DNA of 32,660 nt from NCBI RefSeq assembly GCF_025965585.1, contig NZ_JAOPWR010000325.1:1-32660 (forward strand). The letters run 5' to 3'. The notes under the pieces were generated by a model that saw only the letters and a list, made by a program, of their open reading frames with translations, was not told the origin of the DNA and did not search any database. Of this stretch, positions 6,306-18,067 are shown one piece after another. How positions within the stretch are numbered: the stretch's first letter is position 1; each line of letters begins with the position of its first letter. Origin of the DNA: Pseudonocardia sp. GTDB lineage: Bacteria > Actinomycetota > Actinomycetes > Mycobacteriales > Pseudonocardiaceae. Position numbers and translations under genes: made by a program.

Positions 6306-6459
6306 GCGGCGATGAAGAGGTCCGGGCACGCGCGGTCCGATGACCGGGTGCTGCTCGTCCACTCCGCCGCCCCGGGCACGTCCGGCGACCAGGTGCTCGA
6401 TCTGTCGCGCATCGTCGGACTACAGGAACTTCGTGCATCCGTTACGCTCTGGTGAACGT

Positions 6460-6483
6460 GTCGACGGCTGATGACTCGTCGAC
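6460..6483. promoter_or_regulatory. Inverted repeat upstream of the ArsR gene (possible operator)
   Basis: GTCGACG-N10-CGTCGAC is a perfect 7-bp inverted repeat, eight bases before the GGAGGGGG ribosome-binding site (6491-6498) of the ArsR-type gene. ArsR repressors commonly bind such interrupted palindromes in their own promoters, so autoregulation is the likely reading. It differs from the CAACGCG boxes in front of the amidase. Confidence 0.45.
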
Positions 6484-6507
6484 GCACTGTGGAGGGGGCG
6501 TTCGATC

Positions 6508-6876
6508 GTGGCTGCCGACCTGGCATTCGATGCGCTGGCGGATCCGGTCCGCCGCGAGATCCTCGCGGTGCTCGCTGCCCGCGAGGAGTGCAGCGCGGGT
6601 GAGCTGTCCGGGGCGATCCAGCGCGTCGGGCGCACCGCCGTGTCGAGCCACCTTCGCGTCCTGCGCACCGCGGGCCTCATCGCCGAACGCCGCACCGGCC
6701 GGTTCCGCTACTACTCGGTCGACCCCACCGGCCCCGCCCAGGACGTGATCCGCCTCCTGCAGGAGCTCTTCCAGGGCTCGCTGGAGGCCGCGAAGGTCGT
6801 CGCCGAGTCCGGAGCAGGGTCGACGGTAGGCGTGTCGCGCAACGTCGCCGACGCATCGGACATCAGAGCCATGTGA
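6508..6876 (+). CDS. ArsR-family winged-helix repressor of the nitrile operon (NhlD-like)
   Basis: 122 aa. It starts at GTG behind GGAGGGGG. An ArsR winged helix spans about residues 3-85: ALADPVRREILAVLA, the recognition region RTAVSSHLRVLRTAGLI, and the wing ERRTGRFRYYSVD. The usual metal-binding cysteines of the alpha-3 helix (CVC) are absent, so it is probably not a metal sensor. It sits directly before an amide-sensor-like gene and the nitrile hydratase operon. This parallels Rhodococcus rhodochrous J1, where NhlD (repressor) and NhlC (AmiC-like) control the low-molecular-mass nitrile hydratase. I infer the same role here. Its TGA overlaps the start of the next gene, so the two are translationally coupled. 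Confidence 0.85.
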   Translation: MAADLAFDALADPVRREILAVLAAREECSAGELSGAIQRVGRTAVSSHLRVLRTAGLIAERRTGRFRYYSVDPTGPAQDVIRLLQELFQGSLEAAKVVAESGAGSTVGVSRNVADASDIRAM

Positions 6877-8318
6877 TGGCCTCCCTGGCCCTGTCCGCCG
6901 AGCAACGGATCGACGCGTCGCCCGGCGCGGTGTTCGACCTGTTCGGGGCGGGGTCAGGTGCGGGCTGGGTCTTCGACGCCGCCTGCGACCGCGTCGCGGC
7001 GGGAGCGGCGGTCACGCTGCGCGCACCCCTCGGCGGCCCCACCGGCGAGCCGGTCGAGATGCTGGGGCGGATCACCCGCGCCCGGCCGCCCGGCCGCAAC
7101 CCCGGCCGGATCGAGATCATGCTGGACGTGCCCTGGCGCGGCCGGCTGCGCGTGCTCTTCGACGCGGACGGTCTCGGCACCCGCGTGCGGATCGTCGCCG
7201 ATCTCGACAACGAGGGGCTGCACTGGCTGATGCGCAGGCGCGGCTACCCGGTCCGCGACGACGCGCCCGACAGCAACCATCTCGTCGGCCTGCTCACCAG
7301 CAAGTCCGGTCCGGGCAGCGTCTTCGCCGCCGCCACCGGGAACCTCGCCGCGATGGCCGTCGAGGAGATCAACTCCGACGGTGGGATCCGCGGGCGGCCG
7401 GTGCGGCTGATGGTCGGCGACGACGCCACCGACCCCGTGATGGGCACCGTCGAGGCCCGGCGGCTCGTGCACAACGGCTGCCGCGTGATCATGGTCAGCA
7501 CGACCTCGGCCACGTTCGCCCACGTGGCCGACGAGCTGCGCCCCGACGAGGTGCTGCTCGTGCACACCGTGATGAACGAGGGCGGCCTGGGAGGCGACCT
7601 GCTGGTCCAGCTGGGCGAGCGCCCCTACCAGCAGCTGCGGGCAGCGGCCGACCCGATGATGACGCTCGCGGGCGGACGACGCTGGTTCCTCGCCGGCAAC
7701 GACTACGTGTGGCCGCAGTGCGTGCACGCAGCGGCGCGGCGGGTGGTCGCCGAGGAGCACGGCCAGGTCGTCGGCGAGGCCTTCGCCCCGCTCGGCACGC
7801 GCGACTTCACCCCGGTCATCGAGGCCGTCCTCACGTCCGGGGCCGACGTCGTGCTGTCGTCGTTCGTGGGCGCCGACCTGGTGGCCTTCGAGCGCCAGTG
7901 CCACGCGATGGGTGTGCGGGAACGGGCCCGCTCGCTGGCGCTCGCCCTCGACGAGCCCACCCGCGAGCGCATCGGGGACGCCGCGGGCGACGGGATGTGG
8001 GGCGTGTCGGGCTACTTCGAGCAGCTCCCCGACGAGGCCAACAAGGAGTTCCTGCACCGCTACCGCCAGGCGTTCGGGGCGTTCGCCCCGCCGGTGTCGA
8101 GCATCTCGGAGTCGGTCTACGAGTCGGTCCACCTGTACGCGGCGGCAGCCCGGCGTGCCGGCGAGGACGAGCCGCGCACCGTCGCCCGCGAGCTGCGCCG
8201 CAGCCGCTCGGACTTCCCCCGGGGCACGGTCACGGTGGCCGGGCCGGAAACGGTACGGCAGCAGCTGTTCCTCGCGGAGGCCACACCCGGTGGTTTCGCC
8301 GTGAGTCCGTCGCGTTAA
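6876..8318 (+). CDS. SRPBCC-AmiC-like fusion, putative cytoplasmic amide/nitrile sensor
   Basis: 480 aa from ATG 6876 (a GTG at 6873 is equally possible); either start overlaps the repressor's stop. Residues 1-115 look like an SRPBCC/START ligand-binding fold (EQRIDASPGAVFDLFG, ending DLDNEGLHWLMRRRGYP). Residues about 130-480 form a type 1 periplasmic-binding fold of the AmiC/branched-chain amino acid type (HLVGLLTSKSGPGSVF, AVEEINSDGGIRGRPVRLMVGDD, the FTPVIEAVLTSGADVVL region). There is no signal peptide or lipobox, so it works inside the cell like Pseudomonas AmiC or Rhodococcus NhlC, which bind amides and relieve repression. I infer that it antagonises the ArsR protein when amide is present. 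The N-terminal SRPBCC part is not in AmiC or NhlC as I know them. Confidence 0.82.
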   Translation: MASLALSAEQRIDASPGAVFDLFGAGSGAGWVFDAACDRVAAGAAVTLRAPLGGPTGEPVEMLGRITRARPPGRNPGRIEIMLDVPWRGRLRVLFDADGLGTRVRIVADLDNEGLHWLMRRRGYPVRDDAPDSNHLVGLLTSKSGPGSVFAAATGNLAAMAVEEINSDGGIRGRPVRLMVGDDATDPVMGTVEARRLVHNGCRVIMVSTTSATFAHVADELRPDEVLLVHTVMNEGGLGGDLLVQLGERPYQQLRAAADPMMTLAGGRRWFLAGNDYVWPQCVHAAARRVVAEEHGQVVGEAFAPLGTRDFTPVIEAVLTSGADVVLSSFVGADLVAFERQCHAMGVRERARSLALALDEPTRERIGDAAGDGMWGVSGYFEQLPDEANKEFLHRYRQAFGAFAPPVSSISESVYESVHLYAAAARRAGEDEPRTVARELRRSRSDFPRGTVTVAGPETVRQQLFLAEATPGGFAVSPSR

Positions 8319-8327
8319 ACAACATCA

Positions 8328-8383
8328 CCAACGCGTCAACGCGCCAACGCACATTGACGCGCTATCTGCGCAGTCAATAAGGT
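8328..8383 (+). promoter_or_regulatory. Promoter and operator array of the nitrile hydratase operon
   Basis: A -35 TTGACG (8354-8359) and -10 TAAGGT (8378-8383), 18 bp apart, form a good actinomycete sigma-A-like promoter 30 bp before the amidase ATG. Three head-to-tail 8-mers lie upstream, CCAACGCG, TCAACGCG and CCAACGCA (8328-8351). CGCGTCAA (8332-8339) pairs with TTGACGCG (8354-8361) as a perfect inverted repeat whose right arm covers the -35. This is where a repressor would block transcription; the ArsR protein encoded just upstream is the obvious candidate. Confidence 0.65.
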
Positions 8384-8412: not shown

Positions 8413-9960
8413 ATGCCCATTGACCCACCGGATTCCGCCGCGCTCGACGGCGTGGCCCAGCACTACGGTCTCGGCCTCGCAGCCGACGACATCGCCTCGT
8501 TCAGCCCGCTGGTGAACGGCCTGCTCGCCTCCTGGGACGCCGTCGAAGAGCTCTACAACGCGTCCGCACCCACGATGCCGGAGCGCGCCTGGGTCCGCCC
8601 GGAGCCCGCCGACAACCCCTACAACGCCTGGTACGTCACCACCGCGATCACCGGTTCCGGCGAGGGCCCGCTTGCCGGCATGTCCGTGGCGGTCAAGGAC
8701 AACACCGCTGTCGCCGGCGTGCCGATGACCAACGGCGCGAAGACCGTCGAGGGCTACGTCCCGTTGCGGGACGCCACCATCATCACCCGCATGCTCGCCG
8801 CGGGCGCCACCATCGCCGGCAAGGCCGTCTGCGAGGACCTCTGCTTCTCCGGGGGCTCGCACACCGCCAGCACCGGCGCGGTCCGCAACCCCTGGGACGA
8901 GACGCGCTCCACCGGCGGGTCGTCCTCGGGCAGCGCGGCACTCGTCGCGTCCGGCATCGTCGACGCCGCCACCGGCGGTGACCAGGGCGGCTCGATCCGC
9001 ATGCCGTCGTCCTACTCGGGCATCGTCGGCCACAAGCCCACGTGGGGCCTGGTGCCCTACACCGGCGCGTTCCCGATCGAGCAGTCGATCGACCACGTCG
9101 GACCCATGACGCGCACCGTCGCCGACGCCGCCAAGATCCTCAACGTGATCGCAGGCCCGGACGGGTTGGACCCGCGCCAGCAGCGTGACCTCGTGCCCGA
9201 CGACTACGTGGCCGCGCTGTCGCGCGGCGCCGAGGGCCTGCGGGTGGGCGTCCTCACCGAGGGCTTCGGGCACCCGAACTCCGAGCAGGGCGTGGACGAC
9301 GCCGTGCGCGCCGCCACCGAGACGCTGCGCGGCGCCGGCCTTGTCGTCGAGGACGTCTCGGTGCCGTGGCACCTGCACGGCGCCCGGATCTGGGACGTCA
9401 TCGCCACCGAGGGCGCCGCCGCGCAGATGGTGGACGCCAACGGCTACGGCATGAACTGGAAGGGTCTCTACGACCCCGAGGTCATCGAGCACTACGGCAA
9501 CCAGTGGCGCGCCGACGGCAGCCAGTTCTCCGAGACCGTCAAGCTCGTGCTCCTGGCCGGTCGTTACGCGATCAACACCTATCAGGGCAAGCACTACGCC
9601 ATGGCCCAGAACCTCGCGATCGACCTCAAGGCCGCCTACGACGAGGCGCTCTCGCGCTACGACGTCCTGGTCATGCCGACCACGCCGATCCAGGCCTCGG
9701 TCATCCCGGCGCCGGACGCTCCCCGCGAGGAGATCATCGGCCGGGCGCTGGAGATGCTCGCCAACACCTCCGTCACCGACGTCACCGGCCACCCGGCCTG
9801 CTCGGTCCCCGCAGGCCTGGTGAACGGCCTGCCCACCGGGATGATGATCGTCGGCAAGCACTTCGACGACGCCACGGTGCTGCGCGTCGCGAACACGTTC
9901 GAACAGGCGGTCGGGGGCTTCCCGGCGCCTTCCGCTGCAACGGCTGGGAGCCAGGCATGA
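8413..9960 (+). CDS. Amidase of the nitrile hydratase operon (amidase signature family)
   Basis: 515 aa. Hydrolyses the amides made by nitrile hydratase to carboxylic acid and ammonia. The Ser-cisSer-Lys triad is complete: Lys95 in VAVKDN, cis-Ser170 in TGGSSSGS, and nucleophile Ser194 in GGDQGGSIR. Segments such as [34 protein letters not shown] and [11 protein letters not shown] closely resemble the enantioselective amidases linked to Rhodococcus nitrile hydratases (about 520 aa). The ATG has a GAGGAG site. It is the first gene after the regulated promoter and overlaps the beta-subunit start by ATGA, so the order is amidase, beta, alpha, activator with coupled translation. Confidence 0.95.
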
Positions 9961-10658
9961 ACGGCGTGCACGATCTCGGAGGCACCGACGGGCTCGGACC
10001 CGTACCCGTACCGGACTCCGAGCCGGTGTACCACGCGGAGTGGGAGAAGGCCGCGTTCGCGATGTTCTCCATGGCGTTCCGCGCCGGTTTCTTCGGCGTC
10101 GACGCCTTCCGCTACGGCATCGAGCAGATGCACCCGGCCGCGTACCTGCTCTCGCCGTACTACGACCACTGGGCCCACACCGTCGAGCACTACGGCGTGG
10201 CCAAGGGCGTGCTCGACGAGGCCGAGATCGACAAGCGCATGCAGTACTTCCTCGAGAACCCCGACGCCCCGATGCCCCAGCGGGAGGACCCCGACCTGCT
10301 CGCGTTCGTCGAGGGTGTCGTCAAGTCGGGCGCGCCCGCGAGCCGGCCGTCGGACAAGGTCGCGCAGTTCGCCGTCGGCGACACCGTGACCGTGCTCGCC
10401 GACAGCCCGTTCGGCCACACCCGTAAGGCCCGTTACGTCCGCGGCAAGACCGGCGTGATCACCGCCGCCCACGGCACGATGATCTACCCGGACAGCGCCG
10501 GCAACGGCGGTGACGACGCGCCCGAGCACGTCTACACCGTGAAGTTCACCAACGAGGAGCTCTGGGGCGCGGAATCCGCCGAGCCCAACGGCGTCGTCTA
10601 CTTCGACGTCTGGGAGCCCTACATCGTCCCCGCCACCGCTTCGGAGAAGGCAGCCTGA
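9957..10658 (+). CDS. nthB: Nitrile hydratase beta subunit, cobalt type
   Basis: 233 aa. Forms the alpha-beta unit that hydrates nitriles to amides. The N-terminus [16 protein letters not shown] is the family hallmark. A helical half (about 20-130, with [14 protein letters not shown] and SPYYDHW) is followed by an SH3-like barrel from about 140 ([27 protein letters not shown], the PEHVYTVKF strand, ELWG, and WEPYI at the end). The conserved Arg of GHTRKARY that contacts the oxidised alpha cysteines is present. Length and beta-before-alpha order match the Pseudonocardia thermophila type. The ATG overlaps the amidase stop (ATGA), and its own stop overlaps the alpha start (TGATG). Confidence 0.96.
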
Positions 10659-11269
10659 TGAGCACGACGATTCGCACCCAGGAAGAGATCGCGGCCCGCG
10701 TCAAGGCGCTCGAGGCCATCATGATCGAGAAGGGGATCATGACGACCGGCGCGGTCGACCGCCTCGCCGAGATCTACGAGAACGAGGTCGGCCCCCAGCT
10801 CGGGGCGGCGGTCGTCGCGAAGGCGTGGACCGACCCGGAGTTCAAGGCCCGGCTGGTCGAGGACGCCACGAAGGCCTGCGCAGAGCTGGGCATCGGCGGT
10901 CTGCAGGGCGAGGACATGGTCGTCGTCGAGAACAGCCCGACCGTGCACAACGTCATCACCTGCACCCTGTGCTCCTGCTACCCGTGGCCGGTGCTCGGGC
11001 TCCCCCCGAACTGGTACAAGGGCCCGGAGTACCGCTCGCGCATCGTGCGCGAGCCGCGCAAGGTGCTGCGCGAGGACTTCGGCTTCGACGTGCCCGACTC
11101 CGTCGAGGTGCGGGTGTGGGACTCCTCGTCGGAGATGCGCTACTGGGTCCTCCCGGAGCGCCCGGCCGGCACCGAGGGCCTCGACGAGAAGGCGCTCGCC
11201 GCGCTCGTCACCCGCGACTCGATGATCGGCGTCGGCCCGGTCGCGTCGACTCCTCCCGGGCAGGCCTGA
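10658..11269 (+). CDS. nthA: Nitrile hydratase alpha subunit, cobalt type
   Basis: 203 aa. Carries the catalytic low-spin metal centre. The metal claw is CTLCSC with Cys102, Cys105, Ser106 and Cys107; Thr103 marks the cobalt-containing class (iron enzymes have Ser there). Cys105 and Cys107 are expected to be oxidised to sulfinic and sulfenic acids. The following [20 protein letters not shown] and [10 protein letters not shown] are standard. Starts with a one-base overlap to the beta gene and ends with a one-base overlap to the activator gene. Very secure. No NhlF-type cobalt permease is visible in the window, so cobalt uptake must be encoded elsewhere. Confidence 0.97.
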
Positions 11270-11676
11270 TGGCCTTCCGTCAGGACACCACCGAGCTCGG
11301 CGACGCCCGTCGCCGCGTCGAGGAGCTGGTCTGCCAGCTCCCCGGCGGGGATCGCGCGTTCAACGAACCGTGGGAGCTGCGGGCGTTCGCGATGGCCGTG
11401 GCGGCCTACCACTCCGGTCAGTACGAGTGGAGCGAGTTCCAGCTCTCGCTGATCGACTCCATCAAGAAGTGGGAGGAAGCAGGCGTCAGCGAGAACCCGG
11501 CGCCGTGGTCGTACTACGAGCACTGGCTGGAGGCCCTGGAGACGGTGCTGGCCGGCAACGGCGCGCTGTCCGACGCCGCGCTCGACGAGCGTACGAAGGC
11601 CGTCCTGTCCACCCCGAAGAACGCCAACCACCACGAGGCCCACCGCGAACCGGTCGCGGTGGACCCGGCCAGGTAG
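11269..11676 (+). CDS. Nitrile hydratase activator / P14K-type metallochaperone
   Basis: 135 aa. A homologue of the beta-subunit N-terminal half (FNEPWELRAFAMAVAAYHSG, YEWSEFQLSLIDSIKKWE, YYEHWLEALE). In cobalt nitrile hydratases such proteins (P14K, NhlE, epsilon) bind apo-alpha and deliver cobalt and oxidised cysteines by swapping alpha subunits between complexes. The length fits the roughly 140 aa family. The gene starts on the last base of the alpha stop and is the last tightly coupled member of the operon; 86 bp with a strong hairpin then separate it from the next gene. Confident for family, inferred for mechanism. Confidence 0.92.
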   Translation: MAFRQDTTELGDARRRVEELVCQLPGGDRAFNEPWELRAFAMAVAAYHSGQYEWSEFQLSLIDSIKKWEEAGVSENPAPWSYYEHWLEALETVLAGNGALSDAALDERTKAVLSTPKNANHHEAHREPVAVDPAR

Positions 11677-11687
11677 CGCTCGGCGCC

Positions 11688-11729
11688 CGTGCGCGGTAAT
11701 CGTTGCTCCAGCAACGGCTACCGCGCACG
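11688..11729. terminator. Large perfect hairpin after the nitrile hydratase operon
   Basis: CGTGCGCGGTA (11688-11698) pairs perfectly with TACCGCGCACG (11719-11729). Inside it, CGTTGCT (11701-11707) pairs with AGCAACG (11710-11716), leaving a symmetric 2x2 internal loop and a two-base tip. Eighteen base pairs make it the strongest structure in the window. It starts 12 bp after the activator stop and ends 33 bp before the next GTG. No T-run follows. It could be a bidirectional terminator, an mRNA-stabilising hairpin, or a dispersed palindromic repeat. Confidence 0.6.
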
Positions 11730-11762
11730 CACGTGTCCGGCCCCCAACGACGAGGGAGAACG

Positions 11763-12800
11763 GTGTCCGGCTACTACTCAGACGACGTCCACGGCAAGCA
11801 CGAGTACTTCGAGCTCGGTGGCTTCCCGCTCACAACCGGCTACACGCTCCCCAATGCCCGCCTGGCCTACAAGACGCTGGGCACGCTCAACGCGGCCAAG
11901 GACAACGCGGTGCTGTTCCCGCACATGTTCAGCGGCACGTCGGCGTCGATGGAGACGTTCGTTGGCGAGGGCCGCCCGCTCGACCCCGCGAAGTACTTCG
12001 TGATCTTCCCCGGGCAGTTCGGCGGCGGGTTCTCCTCGAGCCCGTCCAACACGCCCCCGCCGTTCGACCGCGGCCAGTTCCCGCCCGTCGCCATCGCCGA
12101 CGACGTGGTGGCCCAGCACCGGCTCGTCACCGAGCACTTCGGCATCTCCACGCTGCACGCCGTGCTCGGCTGGTCGATGGGTGCGCAGCAGACCTACGAG
12201 TGGGCCGTCCGCTACCCGGACCTGGTGCCGCGCGCCGCGGTGTTCGCGGGCACCGCACGCACGCCCGTGCACAACCAGATCTTCATCGACACCCACACCG
12301 AACTGCTCATCTCCGACCCGGAGTTCAAGGGCGGTTTCTACGACGACTCGGCGCAGGTCCACGTCGGGCTGCGCCGGCTCGCCGTCTCGTTCTCGCTGAT
12401 GGGCCTGTCGTCGTCGTTCTACCGCGACGAGCTGTGGCGCAGCCTGGGCTTCGTCTCCTCCGACGACTTCCGGCAAGGCTTCATCCGCGGCTACTTCGCG
12501 CCGATGGACCCCAACAACCTGCTGTGCCAGAACCGGAAGTGGAAGGCGGGTGACGTCGGCGCGCACGCGGGCGGTGACCTCGCGGACGCCCTCGGGAAGA
12601 TCACCGCGAAGTTCTTCGTCAGCGCGTTCTCCGAGGACCTGTTCTTCCCGCCCGAGGACTGCAAGGCCGACTGCGACATGGTCCCGACCGGGCAGTACCG
12701 CCCGATCGAGACCCCGATGGGCCACTTCGGCATGTTCTGCCTGCGCCCGGAGGACCAGGAGGCCATCGACGCGGTGATCGCGGAGACACTGGCCGCCTGA
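11763..12800 (+). CDS. MetX-like alpha/beta hydrolase or acyltransferase
   Basis: 345 aa from GTG behind GAGGGAGAA. The layout is that of the homoserine O-acetyltransferase family: an N-terminal strand region (PNARLAYKTLGTLNAAKDNA, LFPHMFSGTSASMETF), nucleophile Ser138 in GWSMGAQQTYEWA, a helical lid (about 170-270), a likely acid in AFSEDLFFPPEDC and His in MGHFGMF. True MetX enzymes have GGSMGGMQ and homoserine-binding Arg/Tyr residues; here GWSMGAQQ differs, so it is probably not a methionine biosynthesis enzyme. It lies between the nitrile hydratase operon and a second amidase. A role in nitrile or amide catabolism, for example hydrolysing an ester or activated acid, is inference. Confidence 0.75.
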   Translation: MSGYYSDDVHGKHEYFELGGFPLTTGYTLPNARLAYKTLGTLNAAKDNAVLFPHMFSGTSASMETFVGEGRPLDPAKYFVIFPGQFGGGFSSSPSNTPPPFDRGQFPPVAIADDVVAQHRLVTEHFGISTLHAVLGWSMGAQQTYEWAVRYPDLVPRAAVFAGTARTPVHNQIFIDTHTELLISDPEFKGGFYDDSAQVHVGLRRLAVSFSLMGLSSSFYRDELWRSLGFVSSDDFRQGFIRGYFAPMDPNNLLCQNRKWKAGDVGAHAGGDLADALGKITAKFFVSAFSEDLFFPPEDCKADCDMVPTGQYRPIETPMGHFGMFCLRPEDQEAIDAVIAETLAA

Positions 12801-12829: not shown

Positions 12830-14026
12830 GTGAGCCAGTCACTCAACGCCGTCGTCACCGTCCTCGACCCGGGCACGCCCGGCTCCGGCCCATTGGCCGG
12901 GCTGCGGTTCGGGATCAAGGACAACATCGGGATCGCCGGGGTGGCATCGACGTGCGCCTCGGCGTTCTTCGCCGACCGGATCGCGGCCGCGGACGCCGAG
13001 GTCGTCAGCCGGCTGCGGGACGCGGGCGCCTCCCTGGTGGCGACGCTGAACATGGCCGAGTTCGCGATGGGCGTGACGTCGCAGAACTCGGTGCACGGTG
13101 GCGTCCGCAACCCGTGGGACCTCGACCGGATCCCCGGCGGGTCGAGCGGCGGCTCCGGAGCGGCGGTCGCGGCCGGGCTCGTGGACGTCGCGCTTGGCAC
13201 CGACACCGGCGGCTCGGTGCGGATCCCCGCCTCCATGAACGGCGTCACCGGCCTGCGTCCGACGGTCGGGTCGGTGAGCGACGACGGGGTGTTACCCGTC
13301 TGCCTCGAGGCCGACGTGGTGGGCCCGCTGGCCCGCTCCGTCGGCCTCGTCGCGCGGACGCACGCGGTGCTGACCGGACGGCCGGTGGCCGGCGTCGCGC
13401 CGCCCAGCACGGTCGGTGTGGTCACGGTGCCGCTCGCCGTGGACGACGGGGTGGCCGTCCGCGTCGACGCCGCGGTGCGGGACCTGGAGTCGGCCGGGGC
13501 CCGGCTCGTGCCGGTGACCGTGCCCGGGTTCGCCGAGGTGCGGGAGTCGCTCTACACCGTGGTCTACGCCGACGTCGCGGCCCAGCACCGCGAGCGGATC
13601 CTCGGCGAGCCGGAGCGTTTCCAGCCCGACACGCTCACGCGCTTCCGGCTCGGGCTGGACACCACCCCGGCTCAGCGGGCCGCGGCGATGGCGGAGATCG
13701 AGGAGTTCCGCCGCGGCCTCGACGCGCTGTTCGCCGACGTGGACGTGCTGCTGACGCCGACGGTCGCCGTCGACGTGCCCCTCATCGGAGGTGATCCCGA
13801 CGTGCTCGCCGTGACCCGCCGCGTCGGCGAGCTCACCGCGCCGTGGTCGGCGCACCTCGGCCCGACGCTCGCGCTCCCCGTGGGGCCGCACCCGGGGTCC
13901 GGGATGCCCGTGGGCGTGCAGCTCACCGGGCCGGCCGGGAGCGAGGACCTGCTGTTCGCGGCCGGTGCCACCTTCCAGCGCCGGACGTCCTGGCACGAGC
14001 TGCGTCCGCCCCTGCACGCGGCGTGA
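12830..14026 (+). CDS. Second amidase-signature hydrolase (GatA-like)
   Basis: 398 aa from GTG, 29 bp behind the MetX-like gene. The full catalytic set is present: Lys30 in FGIKDN, cis-Ser105 in GGSSGGS and Ser129 in GTDTGGSVR. It is over 100 residues shorter than the operon's first amidase because it lacks the N-terminal helical extension and some C-terminal loops, so it is a different branch (compact amidases close to AtzF/GatA-like enzymes). It is not GatA itself: no gatB or gatC is near. The substrate is unknown; small amides, allophanate-like or carbamoyl compounds are possible. Its position suggests it shares the amide-degrading role. Confidence 0.88.
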   Translation: MSQSLNAVVTVLDPGTPGSGPLAGLRFGIKDNIGIAGVASTCASAFFADRIAAADAEVVSRLRDAGASLVATLNMAEFAMGVTSQNSVHGGVRNPWDLDRIPGGSSGGSGAAVAAGLVDVALGTDTGGSVRIPASMNGVTGLRPTVGSVSDDGVLPVCLEADVVGPLARSVGLVARTHAVLTGRPVAGVAPPSTVGVVTVPLAVDDGVAVRVDAAVRDLESAGARLVPVTVPGFAEVRESLYTVVYADVAAQHRERILGEPERFQPDTLTRFRLGLDTTPAQRAAAMAEIEEFRRGLDALFADVDVLLTPTVAVDVPLIGGDPDVLAVTRRVGELTAPWSAHLGPTLALPVGPHPGSGMPVGVQLTGPAGSEDLLFAAGATFQRRTSWHELRPPLHAA

Positions 14027-15932: not shown

Positions 15933-17615
15933 CTAGAGGAAGTAGCGGTTCGTCATCGGGAGGACCTCGGCAGGCGGCAGGTCCACCGGCCTGCCGTCGA
16001 TCTCGACCTCCAGGGAGTCCGGTGAGACCCGGACCTGCGGCGACGCCCCGTTGAGCACCAGGTCGGCCTTCGTGAGGTGGCGCGAGTTCTGCACCGCCGA
16101 GAGCCGCCTGCGGATCTTGAGACGTCCGGCCAGCCCGGAGTCGATGGCCGCCTGCCCCACGAACGCGACGCCCAGCGAGGCGGGGGCGAGGCCGTAGGAG
16201 CCGAACATCGGACGGTAGATCTGCGGCTGGCCCAGGCGCGTGGAGTCGTTGCCGCCCCCGACCGGCCCCCACACCACGAACCCGTTCTTGAGCACCAGCT
16301 GCGGCTTGACGCCGAAGAACTCCGGGCGCCACAGCACGATGTCGGCGAGCAGGCCCGAGCGCAGCGAGCCGATCTCGTGGGCCATGCCCTGCGTGATCGC
16401 CGGGTTGACCGTGAGCTTCGCCAGGTACCGCAGGATGCGCGCGTTGTCGTTCGGGCCCTCGGCGCCGAACGCCTCCTTCATCCGGTGCGCGAGCTGCCAC
16501 GTCCGGATCGAGACCTCGCCGATGCGGCCCATGCCCTGCGAGTCCGACGACATCATCGCGATCGCGCCGCGGTCGTGCAGCACGCTCTCACCGGCCACCG
16601 TGCCGCCACGGCCGCGCCAGTTCAGTGAGGCCCTGTCCTCCTCCAGGGAGGCGTGCATGCGGTGCACGGCCATCTTCATCTCGGGATACTCGGCGTAGGT
16701 GTTCACCGAGTACGGGATGGTCGGCGTGGTGGACGAACCCAGCACGTGCGGCACCCCGGCCAGCTCCAACACGTTCGGGTGCCCGCCCCCGAGCCCCTCG
16801 ATGTGGTACGCGTGGATCGTCCGGCCGTCGATCGCGGCGAGGGTGTCCTCGAGCTCGCCACCCTCCTGGTTGGAGTCGGTGTGGATGCAGACCGGCACGT
16901 CGTACTCGTCGGCGATGGTGAGCGCGTTGTCGATCACCGAGGTGAAGCTGGCGGAGTCCTCGTGGATCTTCAGCCCGGCCGCGCCCATCTCCATGTTGCG
17001 CTCGAGCGGGTCGGGGTCCGACGAGCTGCCGCGCCCGAGCAGGGCCACGTTCATCGGGTAGCCCTCCCACGCCTCCATGAGGCGGTGGAAGTGGTACTCG
17101 GGGTTGACGCCCAGGTCGGACACGTGGCCGTAGCCCATTCCGACGACGGTGGTGGTGCCCGCCGAGAGCGCGGCGGGGATCAGGCTGGTGGTGGCCAGGT
17201 GCACGTGGGGGTCGATGATCCCGGCGGTGGCGATCATGCCCTCGCCCATGATCCAGCCGGTGTTGGCGCCCGCCACGAGGTCCACGCCGTCGGTGACGTC
17301 CGGGTTGCCGGCTCGGCCGAGGCCGACGATGCGACCCTCCTTGATCCCGATGTTGGTCTTGACGATGCCGACGAGCGGGTCGACCACCACCACGTTCGCG
17401 ATGATCAGGTCCATCGTGGAGTCCTGGTCGCGGTGGCTGGACATGCCCATGCTGTCGCGGATGGTCTTGCCGAAGCCCCACAGCGGCTCGTCGCCGTAGG
17501 AGGTGTGGTCGGCCTCCACCTCGGCGACGAGGTTGGTGTCGGCGAGCTGGATGCGGTCACCGACCGTGGGGCCGTAGAGGGTGTTGTAGGTGGGGCGCTC
17601 GATCGGACGCGGCAC
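15933..17615 (-). CDS. ureC: Urease subunit alpha, divergent
   Basis: 560 aa from GTG 17615 with CAGGAG eight bases upstream and two bases after the ureB stop. Urease alpha hydrolyses urea to ammonia and carbamate at a dinickel centre. All metal ligands are present: His137 and His139 (HVH), Lys216 for carbamylation (GLKIHED), His245, His271 and Asp358 (SSDSQGMG). The catalytic flap His318 is kept, but the flap reads AVHRMH where typical ureases have VCHHLD, so the usual Cys is Val317. The region after the HVH motif (GMGYGHVSDLGVNPEYHFHR) and HIEGLGGGHPNV also depart from the usual GGGTGPA and HTEGAGGGHAPD. It is clearly urease-related but from a divergent branch. Accessory genes ureDEFG are not in the window. 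Confidence 0.9.
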   Translation of the reverse strand: MPRPIERPTYNTLYGPTVGDRIQLADTNLVAEVEADHTSYGDEPLWGFGKTIRDSMGMSSHRDQDSTMDLIIANVVVVDPLVGIVKTNIGIKEGRIVGLGRAGNPDVTDGVDLVAGANTGWIMGEGMIATAGIIDPHVHLATTSLIPAALSAGTTTVVGMGYGHVSDLGVNPEYHFHRLMEAWEGYPMNVALLGRGSSSDPDPLERNMEMGAAGLKIHEDSASFTSVIDNALTIADEYDVPVCIHTDSNQEGGELEDTLAAIDGRTIHAYHIEGLGGGHPNVLELAGVPHVLGSSTTPTIPYSVNTYAEYPEMKMAVHRMHASLEEDRASLNWRGRGGTVAGESVLHDRGAIAMMSSDSQGMGRIGEVSIRTWQLAHRMKEAFGAEGPNDNARILRYLAKLTVNPAITQGMAHEIGSLRSGLLADIVLWRPEFFGVKPQLVLKNGFVVWGPVGGGNDSTRLGQPQIYRPMFGSYGLAPASLGVAFVGQAAIDSGLAGRLKIRRRLSAVQNSRHLTKADLVLNGASPQVRVSPDSLEVEIDGRPVDLPPAEVLPMTNRYFL

Positions 17616-17617
17616 GC

Positions 17618-18067
17618 TCAGACTCCTGAATCCCGGAAGCCGGCCGCGCGCAGCCGGGCCAGCGCAGCGGCGCGGTGCTCCTCGAAGCGCCCGTCGGACA
17701 GCGTCGCGTTGGTCAGGCCGTTGAATCCGTACACGGCCCGCTCCCCCGCGTACGACACCAGCGCGACGTCTCCCGACGCGCCCGGGCCGAACCTCACCGA
17801 CTCCCCCGCGGGCAGGTCGAGGCGCATCCCGAACGCCGCGGAGCGGTCGAACTCCAGGTGCCGGTTGGCCTCGAAGAAGTGGAAGTGCGAGGTGACCACC
17901 ACCGGCCACGCCGAGTGGTTGTGCACGTGGACGACGGCGGTCGTGCGCTCGCCGAGCTCCGGGACGATCGGCTCGGGAGCGGGCAGCACGCGCCCCGGCC
18001 AGCCGTCCGCCGGCGTGATCCTGACCTGGCCACGCGGTGTCGATGACTCGCTCGCAGGCTCGCTCAT
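17618..18067 (-). CDS. ureB: Urease subunit beta
   Basis: 149 aa. A small structural subunit of the urease trimer. The beta-sandwich core shows ELGERTTAVVHVHNHSAWPV, the conserved SHFHFFEANRHLEFDR, FGMRLDLPAGESVRFGPG and YGFNGL. About 20 residues of Ser/Pro/Gly-rich N-terminus and a 30-residue helical C-terminus extend beyond the usual 100-110 aa. Its ATG overlaps the ureA stop by four bases (ATGA), and ureC starts two bases after its stop, so ureABC is a single coupled operon. The core SHFHFFEANRHLEFDR motif makes the call secure. Confidence 0.95.
   Translation of the reverse strand: MSEPASESSTPRGQVRITPADGWPGRVLPAPEPIVPELGERTTAVVHVHNHSAWPVVVTSHFHFFEANRHLEFDRSAAFGMRLDLPAGESVRFGPGASGDVALVSYAGERAVYGFNGLTNATLSDGRFEEHRAAALARLRAAGFRDSGV

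Follow-up and report, generated by a model that had tools for sequence, protein, structure and literature searches.

A two-domain protein beside a nitrile hydratase operon of Pseudonocardia sp. as the probable sensor of an amide-induced ArsR repressor system

In the window, i.e. the whole stretch of 32,660 nucleotides of Pseudonocardia sp. DNA analyzed here, a gene for an ArsR-family repressor is followed on the same strand by the gene of a two-domain sensor protein, an amidase gene, and the genes for both subunits and an accessory protein of a nitrile hydratase (NHase; Table 1). The stop codon of arsR overlaps the start of the sensor gene at 6876, whose open frame comprises 6873-8318. One operator-like repeat lies before arsR and a second one before the amidase-NHase operon, the latter overlapping a promoter-like pair of hexamers; a generic sigma-70 scan gave no match at its threshold. 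The NHase genes are followed by a gene for a MetX-like hydrolase (11703-12800, PRK07581 subfamily) and by another gene of the amidase family (12830-14026). The MetX-like gene recurs with 77-78% identity in the loci L021, L022, and L025, and with 38% in L078. A gene of the urease-alpha/amidohydrolase family on the reverse strand (15936-17909, with a provisional frame start), with matches to the Urease_alpha N-terminal and Amidohydro_1 domains, possibly encodes another amide or urea enzyme.

Table 1. Position of the sensor locus features within the window and basis of their assignment.
Feature	Position	Strand	Basis
Operator-like 30-bp repeat before arsR	6455..6484	-	Score 23.4; ends just upstream of the arsR ribosome-binding site
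ArsR-family repressor, 122 aa	6508..6876	+	Pfam HTH_20 4.1e-10, HTH_5 1.3e-7; NCBIfam ArsR/SmtB 72.6 bits
Two-domain amide-sensor protein (probable function), 480 aa	6876..8318	+	ATG at 6876; GTG start at 6873 also possible
SRPBCC/START-like domain (predicted), residues 1-122	6876..7241	+	N-domain model, fold searches, Pfam hits of relatives
Type 1 periplasmic-binding fold (AmiC/UrtA-like), residues ~135-476	7278..8303	+	Peripla_BP_6 9e-71; structural similarity to UrtA and AmiC
Operator-like 30-bp repeat before the amidase-NHase operon	8334..8363	+	Score 28.3 after training without the window; conserved in relatives
Promoter-like hexamers TTGACG (8354-8359) and TAAGGT (8378-8383)	8354..8383	+	Read from the sequence and aligned intergenic regions; overlap the operator
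Amidase, PRK07235 type	8413..9960	+	Domain match
Nitrile hydratase beta subunit	9957..10658	+	Domain match; inside the longer frame 9366-10658
Nitrile hydratase alpha subunit	10658..11269	+	Domain match
Nitrile hydratase accessory (activator-like) protein	11266..11676	+	NHase_beta_N 2.2e-12; same annotation after nthA in R. rhodochrous pNit

The initial annotation had described the sensor as an SRPBCC-like N-terminal part joined to a type 1 binding domain in one chain, and this reading was borne out by structure prediction as well as by fold and domain searches. For the C-terminal half, the Peripla_BP_6 match spans residues 137-469 (E 9e-71), and the model of the full 480-aa chain (pLDDT 91.7) agrees with a UrtA/AmiC-like fold. 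By sequence, the closest solved structures belong to a periplasmic urea-binding protein (8tg1), to UrtA proteins, and to AmiC; AmiC shares 25-26% identity with the sensor in the structure alignment (E 1e-19 by sequence). Since this domain follows another domain in the chain, it is presumably cytoplasmic. No DNA-binding part was recognized in the two-domain sensor. For residues 1-122, models and fold searches agree on a helix-grip fold, and by these predictions this half is an SRPBCC (START/AHSA1-like) domain. In the SRPBCC fold, a long C-terminal helix closes the pocket; the models show a short helix at residues 112-121. At the sequence level, the sensor's own N-domain gave no match to curated SRPBCC profiles, a set of 40 N-domains gave 18 matches to PF10604 and 8 to AHSA1 at E<=1 (best 1.1e-6), and the N-domain profile found a single weak match among PDB sequences (3q6a, E 0.031). 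The matches from the fold searches include 3uid (MSMEG_6760) as well as the ligand binders PYL1 with abscisic acid and lachrymatory factor synthase with crotyl alcohol.

A sequence search with the sensor returned 437 proteins passing an E of 1e-5, and most of the best 120 of these 437 comprise 470-490 aa. In a scan of species genomes, 154 relatives were confirmed; the best 80 of the 154 loci were kept, 57 of which match from the first domain on. Matches to the first domain were obtained from Pseudonocardia, Streptomyces, Nonomuraea, Amycolatopsis, Allokutzneria, Acidimicrobiia, and others. When 197 genomes of the class were searched with the N-domain profile, scoring 21 candidates per genome, the own genome was the sole clear match, beside three weak ones (E 8e-5 to 5e-4). 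The two-domain class comprises 79 loci, including the window (L001) and L089, in which only residues 1-134 match; 16 of them share their protein with another locus and were dropped, resulting in 63 distinct two-domain proteins (the window's included), mainly from Actinomycetes and Acidimicrobiia. Four loci with a match starting at residues 39-104 were left out of both the two-domain and the one-domain class (L011, L031, L055, and L104); L011 and L031 are cut at a contig end, and L104 does have ArsR upstream. A shorter form of 334 aa (P0178) was present on 18 contigs; it aligns with 63% of the Rhodococcus sensor at 89% identity, diverges at its start, ends early, and looks like a broken copy that has spread. 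The possibility that two separate genes are merged here by a sequencing error is ruled out by the 63 distinct proteins.

The two classes differ in the gene preceding the sensor. Using an ArsR profile, an ArsR gene was detected just upstream on the same strand in 78 of the 79 two-domain loci compared to 0 of 22 one-domain relatives, where the two-domain loci are related by descent and the classes are clades, so that these are not 78 independent events. In the exception, L051, ArsR is encoded in a nearby operon on the opposite strand. One-domain sensors beside NHase genes adjoin MarR in both scanned cases, Pseudonocardia dioxanivorans (L100) and Rhodococcus M8 (L103), which are the two that this count covers; a third such sensor is that of L094. 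The sensors extend from 7411 to 9017 in L100 and from 5980 to 7454 in L103, with the paired MarR genes on the opposite strand. The combination of a one-domain sensor with MarR is an alternative wiring of the same input. Since the two-domain form occurs with ArsR, while the one-domain form is found beside MarR and not ArsR, the SRPBCC part follows the repressor type.

The ArsR sequences of 59 distinct loci, in which both genes were present and the sensor comprised at least 430 aa, were examined for the C-x-C motif; it was absent from the aligned parts of all 59. In the same sample, distance correlation gave no indication that the SRPBCC half is the partner of ArsR: the partial correlation was 0.07 between ArsR and the N-terminal half and 0.26 between ArsR and the C-terminal half, with an interval for the difference of -0.46 to 0.02, which includes zero. 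The own genome additionally encodes three stand-alone ArsR-AHSA1 gene pairs, assigned by position, on the contigs C376, C471, and C489, which account for 3 of 10 ArsR matches (the window's included) and 3 of 8 AHSA1 matches.

For the operator-like repeat, 35 distinct intergenic regions between sensor and amidase (window included) were compared. Most of them share a repeat with the consensus TGTCAACGTGTCACCACCCGTTGACATGTT, together with a promoter-like TTGAC/TAGATT pair. Of the 31 regions aligned on TTGAC, 19 have TCAA at a distance of 18 from TTGAC; 4 of the 35 lack the exact TTGAC. Training sites were taken from 25 of the 35 regions, and from 24, with the window left out, for the scans of the window, of the loci, and of unlinked NHase genes. 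The leave-one-out scores ranged from 13.3 to 40.6 and the per-region shuffle maxima from 1.2 to 13.4, and every score exceeded those of its own 100 shuffles. With the window left out of training, the two best places in it were 8334-8363 and 6455-6484, the best score elsewhere being 5.9. In the own genome of 6.8 Mb, the two sites were the only matches to a loose pattern that had itself been derived from them, while the control gave 0 matches.

Among 62 distinct loci (window included), a site was found upstream of arsR in 35, after the sensor in 50, and at one or both of these places in 58; for loci outside the training set, the result was 34 of 38. Across 964 kb, 11 further sites were obtained compared to 1 in the reversed control. 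In 4 of the 62 loci (L041, L050, L051, and L078), both places lacked a site; of these, L050 and L051 have an operator-like site further away. In the 339 kb of the 22 one-domain loci, 4 sites were found, none of them close to the sensor. Likewise, none of 16 NHase loci lacking an ArsR-sensor pair, hand-chosen from those available and stemming from 16 genomes, had a site at the NHase genes; in three of them a score of 9.4 was reached about 3 kb away. In L075 and L076, further operator-like sites with a score of 26.7 lie about 9 kb after the sensor start, and since they are this far from the sensor, the regulon of these loci may hold another operon. In L102 (R. pyridinivorans 4-4), the ArsR-sensor pair is followed by ABC-transporter genes with an annotation for iron transport, and a site lies 100 bp downstream of the sensor match; this pair possibly controls a different target.

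Gene content was compared for 49 distinct well-flanked loci, i.e. those with at least 5 kb before and at least 7 kb after the sensor. The two-domain order was indeed found beside other NHase operons, as the initial annotation had proposed to look for, with the NHase alpha subunit at 22 of the 49 loci. An amidase was present at all 49, which leaves 27 with an amidase and without NHase in the locus. For Acidimicrobiia, the amidase was only 30-34% identical; in the one locus scanned (L062), a UrtA-like binding protein, permeases, and ATPases are followed by a clear member of the Amidase family, which ends the operon. As the amidase occurs at every locus and NHase at only 22, amides are the common thread at the sensor locus, though this is no proof of the ligand.

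Within the window's own group, 21 genomes were searched, 20 belonging to the genus, the window's genome among them, and one to the order; these are all but one (G006) of the 22 genomes with a two-domain match. An NHase alpha subunit was encoded somewhere in all 21. Accordingly, an NHase gene missing from the locus may still be present elsewhere in the cell. Outside the genus, 24 genomes having the sensor without adjoining NHase were hand-chosen from those available. In 15 of them, NHase alpha was found over the Pfam cut-off, while of the other 9, for which genome completeness is not given, 8 had no match and 1 had a sub-threshold match.

Among the closest known systems is the L-NHase cluster of R. 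rhodochrous. A protein 54% identical to the sensor over residues 1-470 is encoded on five Rhodococcus plasmids, among them that of R. rhodochrous BAA-870, where the order is ArsR, two-domain sensor, nthB, nthA, accessory protein, HoxN/NixA-type transporter, and amidase. The arrangement of ArsR, sensor, and then NHase and amidase genes is shared by the window and R. rhodochrous pNit, and operator-like sites precede arsR and nthB in the BAA-870 cluster as they precede arsR and the operon in the window. In contrast, the amidase precedes the NHase genes in the window, and no cobalt transporter was found among the part of its genes that was scanned. The order in BAA-870 equals that of strain J1, nhlD-nhlC-nhlB-nhlA-nhlF-amdA, with an ArsR-like NhlD and an AmiC-like NhlC. 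Because the BAA-870 L-NHase cluster encodes the same protein in this J1-like order, NhlC very probably has both domains, and by this analogy the window sensor is most likely of the NhlC type itself, which is already known functionally in J1. The earlier statement that AmiC and NhlC possess only the second part is hence probably wrong for NhlC, and it holds for AmiC.

AmiC, the amide receptor of Pseudomonas aeruginosa, has the same type 1 binding fold, lacks an SRPBCC part, and acts on the antiterminator AmiR. The window sensor has ArsR and not AmiR as its adjacent partner and is therefore classed as AmiC-like by fold only. The one-domain sensors with MarR, a pair of the NhhC/NhhD type, are likewise AmiC-like; in Rhodococcus M8 and Pseudonocardia dioxanivorans they adjoin NHase genes. 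They differ from the window sensor in lacking the SRPBCC part and in having MarR instead of ArsR, with an identity of 32-33%.

For the SRPBCC half, a parallel is provided by gene pairs of ArsR and COG3832 (AHSA1/SRPBCC). Excerpts of a 2009 survey describe them as a known class without the usual metal motifs, count the pairing 280 times, and leave its function open (PMC2701414). Such ArsR-SRPBCC pairs are noted in Frankia in an excerpt of PMC4531530, and MSMEG_6760 is described as co-transcribed with the ArsR protein MSMEG_6762 in an excerpt of PMC9416677. As in the window, the SRPBCC protein of these pairs adjoins ArsR, but it stands alone, whereas that of the window is fused to the amide-sensor fold. 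Another ArsR-family protein, CblA of Rhodococcus rhodochrous, regulates NHase and senses cobalt according to an excerpt of PMC7689651; the window ArsR differs from it by the lack of the C-x-C motif and by being paired with a protein sensor.

Altogether, it appears fairly probable that the protein serves as the sensor in an NhlD/NhlC-like repressor system induced by amides, in which amide binding relieves repression by ArsR, with the SRPBCC half most likely contacting ArsR. This reading is built on the two folds, on the linkage of the genes, on the conserved sites, and on the missing C-x-C motif of ArsR, all of which were obtained by computation. In the proposed sequence of events, ArsR would bind the two operator-like repeats, the downstream one overlapping the -35 box, and block transcription. 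The AmiC-like half would bind a short amide, which NHase produces and the amidase consumes, and the amide-bound sensor would lift ArsR off the operator, the SRPBCC half most likely being the piece that touches it. This direct contact, already suggested in the initial annotation, is proposed because of the gene linkage and the known ArsR-COG3832 pairs; it fits the strict linkage and the MarR pairing of the one-domain sensors, while the distance correlation does not support it. Against this reading stand the 4 loci with no site at either place and strain BAA-870, which is described in an excerpt of PMC6941271 as expressing NHase constitutively, although no visible damage was found in its ArsR, sensor, or sites.

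Alternatively, the AmiC-like half could contact ArsR in the way AmiC contacts AmiR, for which the complex is solved (1qo0), leaving the SRPBCC half as a part for dimerization or stability. The nominally higher partial correlation of ArsR with the C-terminal half points in this direction. However, one-domain relatives have no ArsR just upstream and adjoin MarR in the two scanned cases; since the SRPBCC part thus appears where ArsR does, we consider this explanation unlikely. The SRPBCC half could also bind nitrile while the AmiC-like half binds amide, as the initial annotation had proposed. SRPBCC folds often contain ligand pockets, the window gene lies beside NHase, and every genome searched from its own group encodes NHase alpha. 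On the other hand, the 27 well-flanked loci without NHase, the 9 of 24 hand-chosen outside-genus genomes without NHase alpha over the cut-off, and the lack of the operator at all 16 hand-chosen unlinked NHase loci leave separate sensing of nitrile unsupported, and only a slim chance is assigned to it. Of the new type of two-input nitrile regulator that had been envisaged, the domain reading was right, but the nitrile input found no support and the same protein is present in the BAA-870 L-NHase cluster. Finally, the ligand of the SRPBCC half could be a different small molecule, for example a longer acyl amide or acid, whose binding would tune the response. The ligand binders among the fold matches are in line with this; nothing specific was found for it, and we rate it as very improbable.

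Among the results listed by searches of the open-access literature, no description of this two-domain architecture or of the operator was found. For the NHase regulation of industrial Rhodococcus strains, which is induced by the product, the results indicate how the sensor is built, which partner it is likely to have, and which DNA site belongs to it, and the operator could serve for finding the regulon or for building amide-responsive expression systems. In a wider and tentative generalization, which we hold to be possible without favoring it, SRPBCC proteins could be general antirepressor partners of ArsR proteins without metal sites, and the sensor family would display this principle through its wiring to an amide-sensing binding protein. 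If true, the many ArsR-COG3832 pairs without a settled function would be ligand-responsive modules of repressor and antirepressor. The sensor family offers a direct bench test of the role of SRPBCC proteins beside ArsR repressors.
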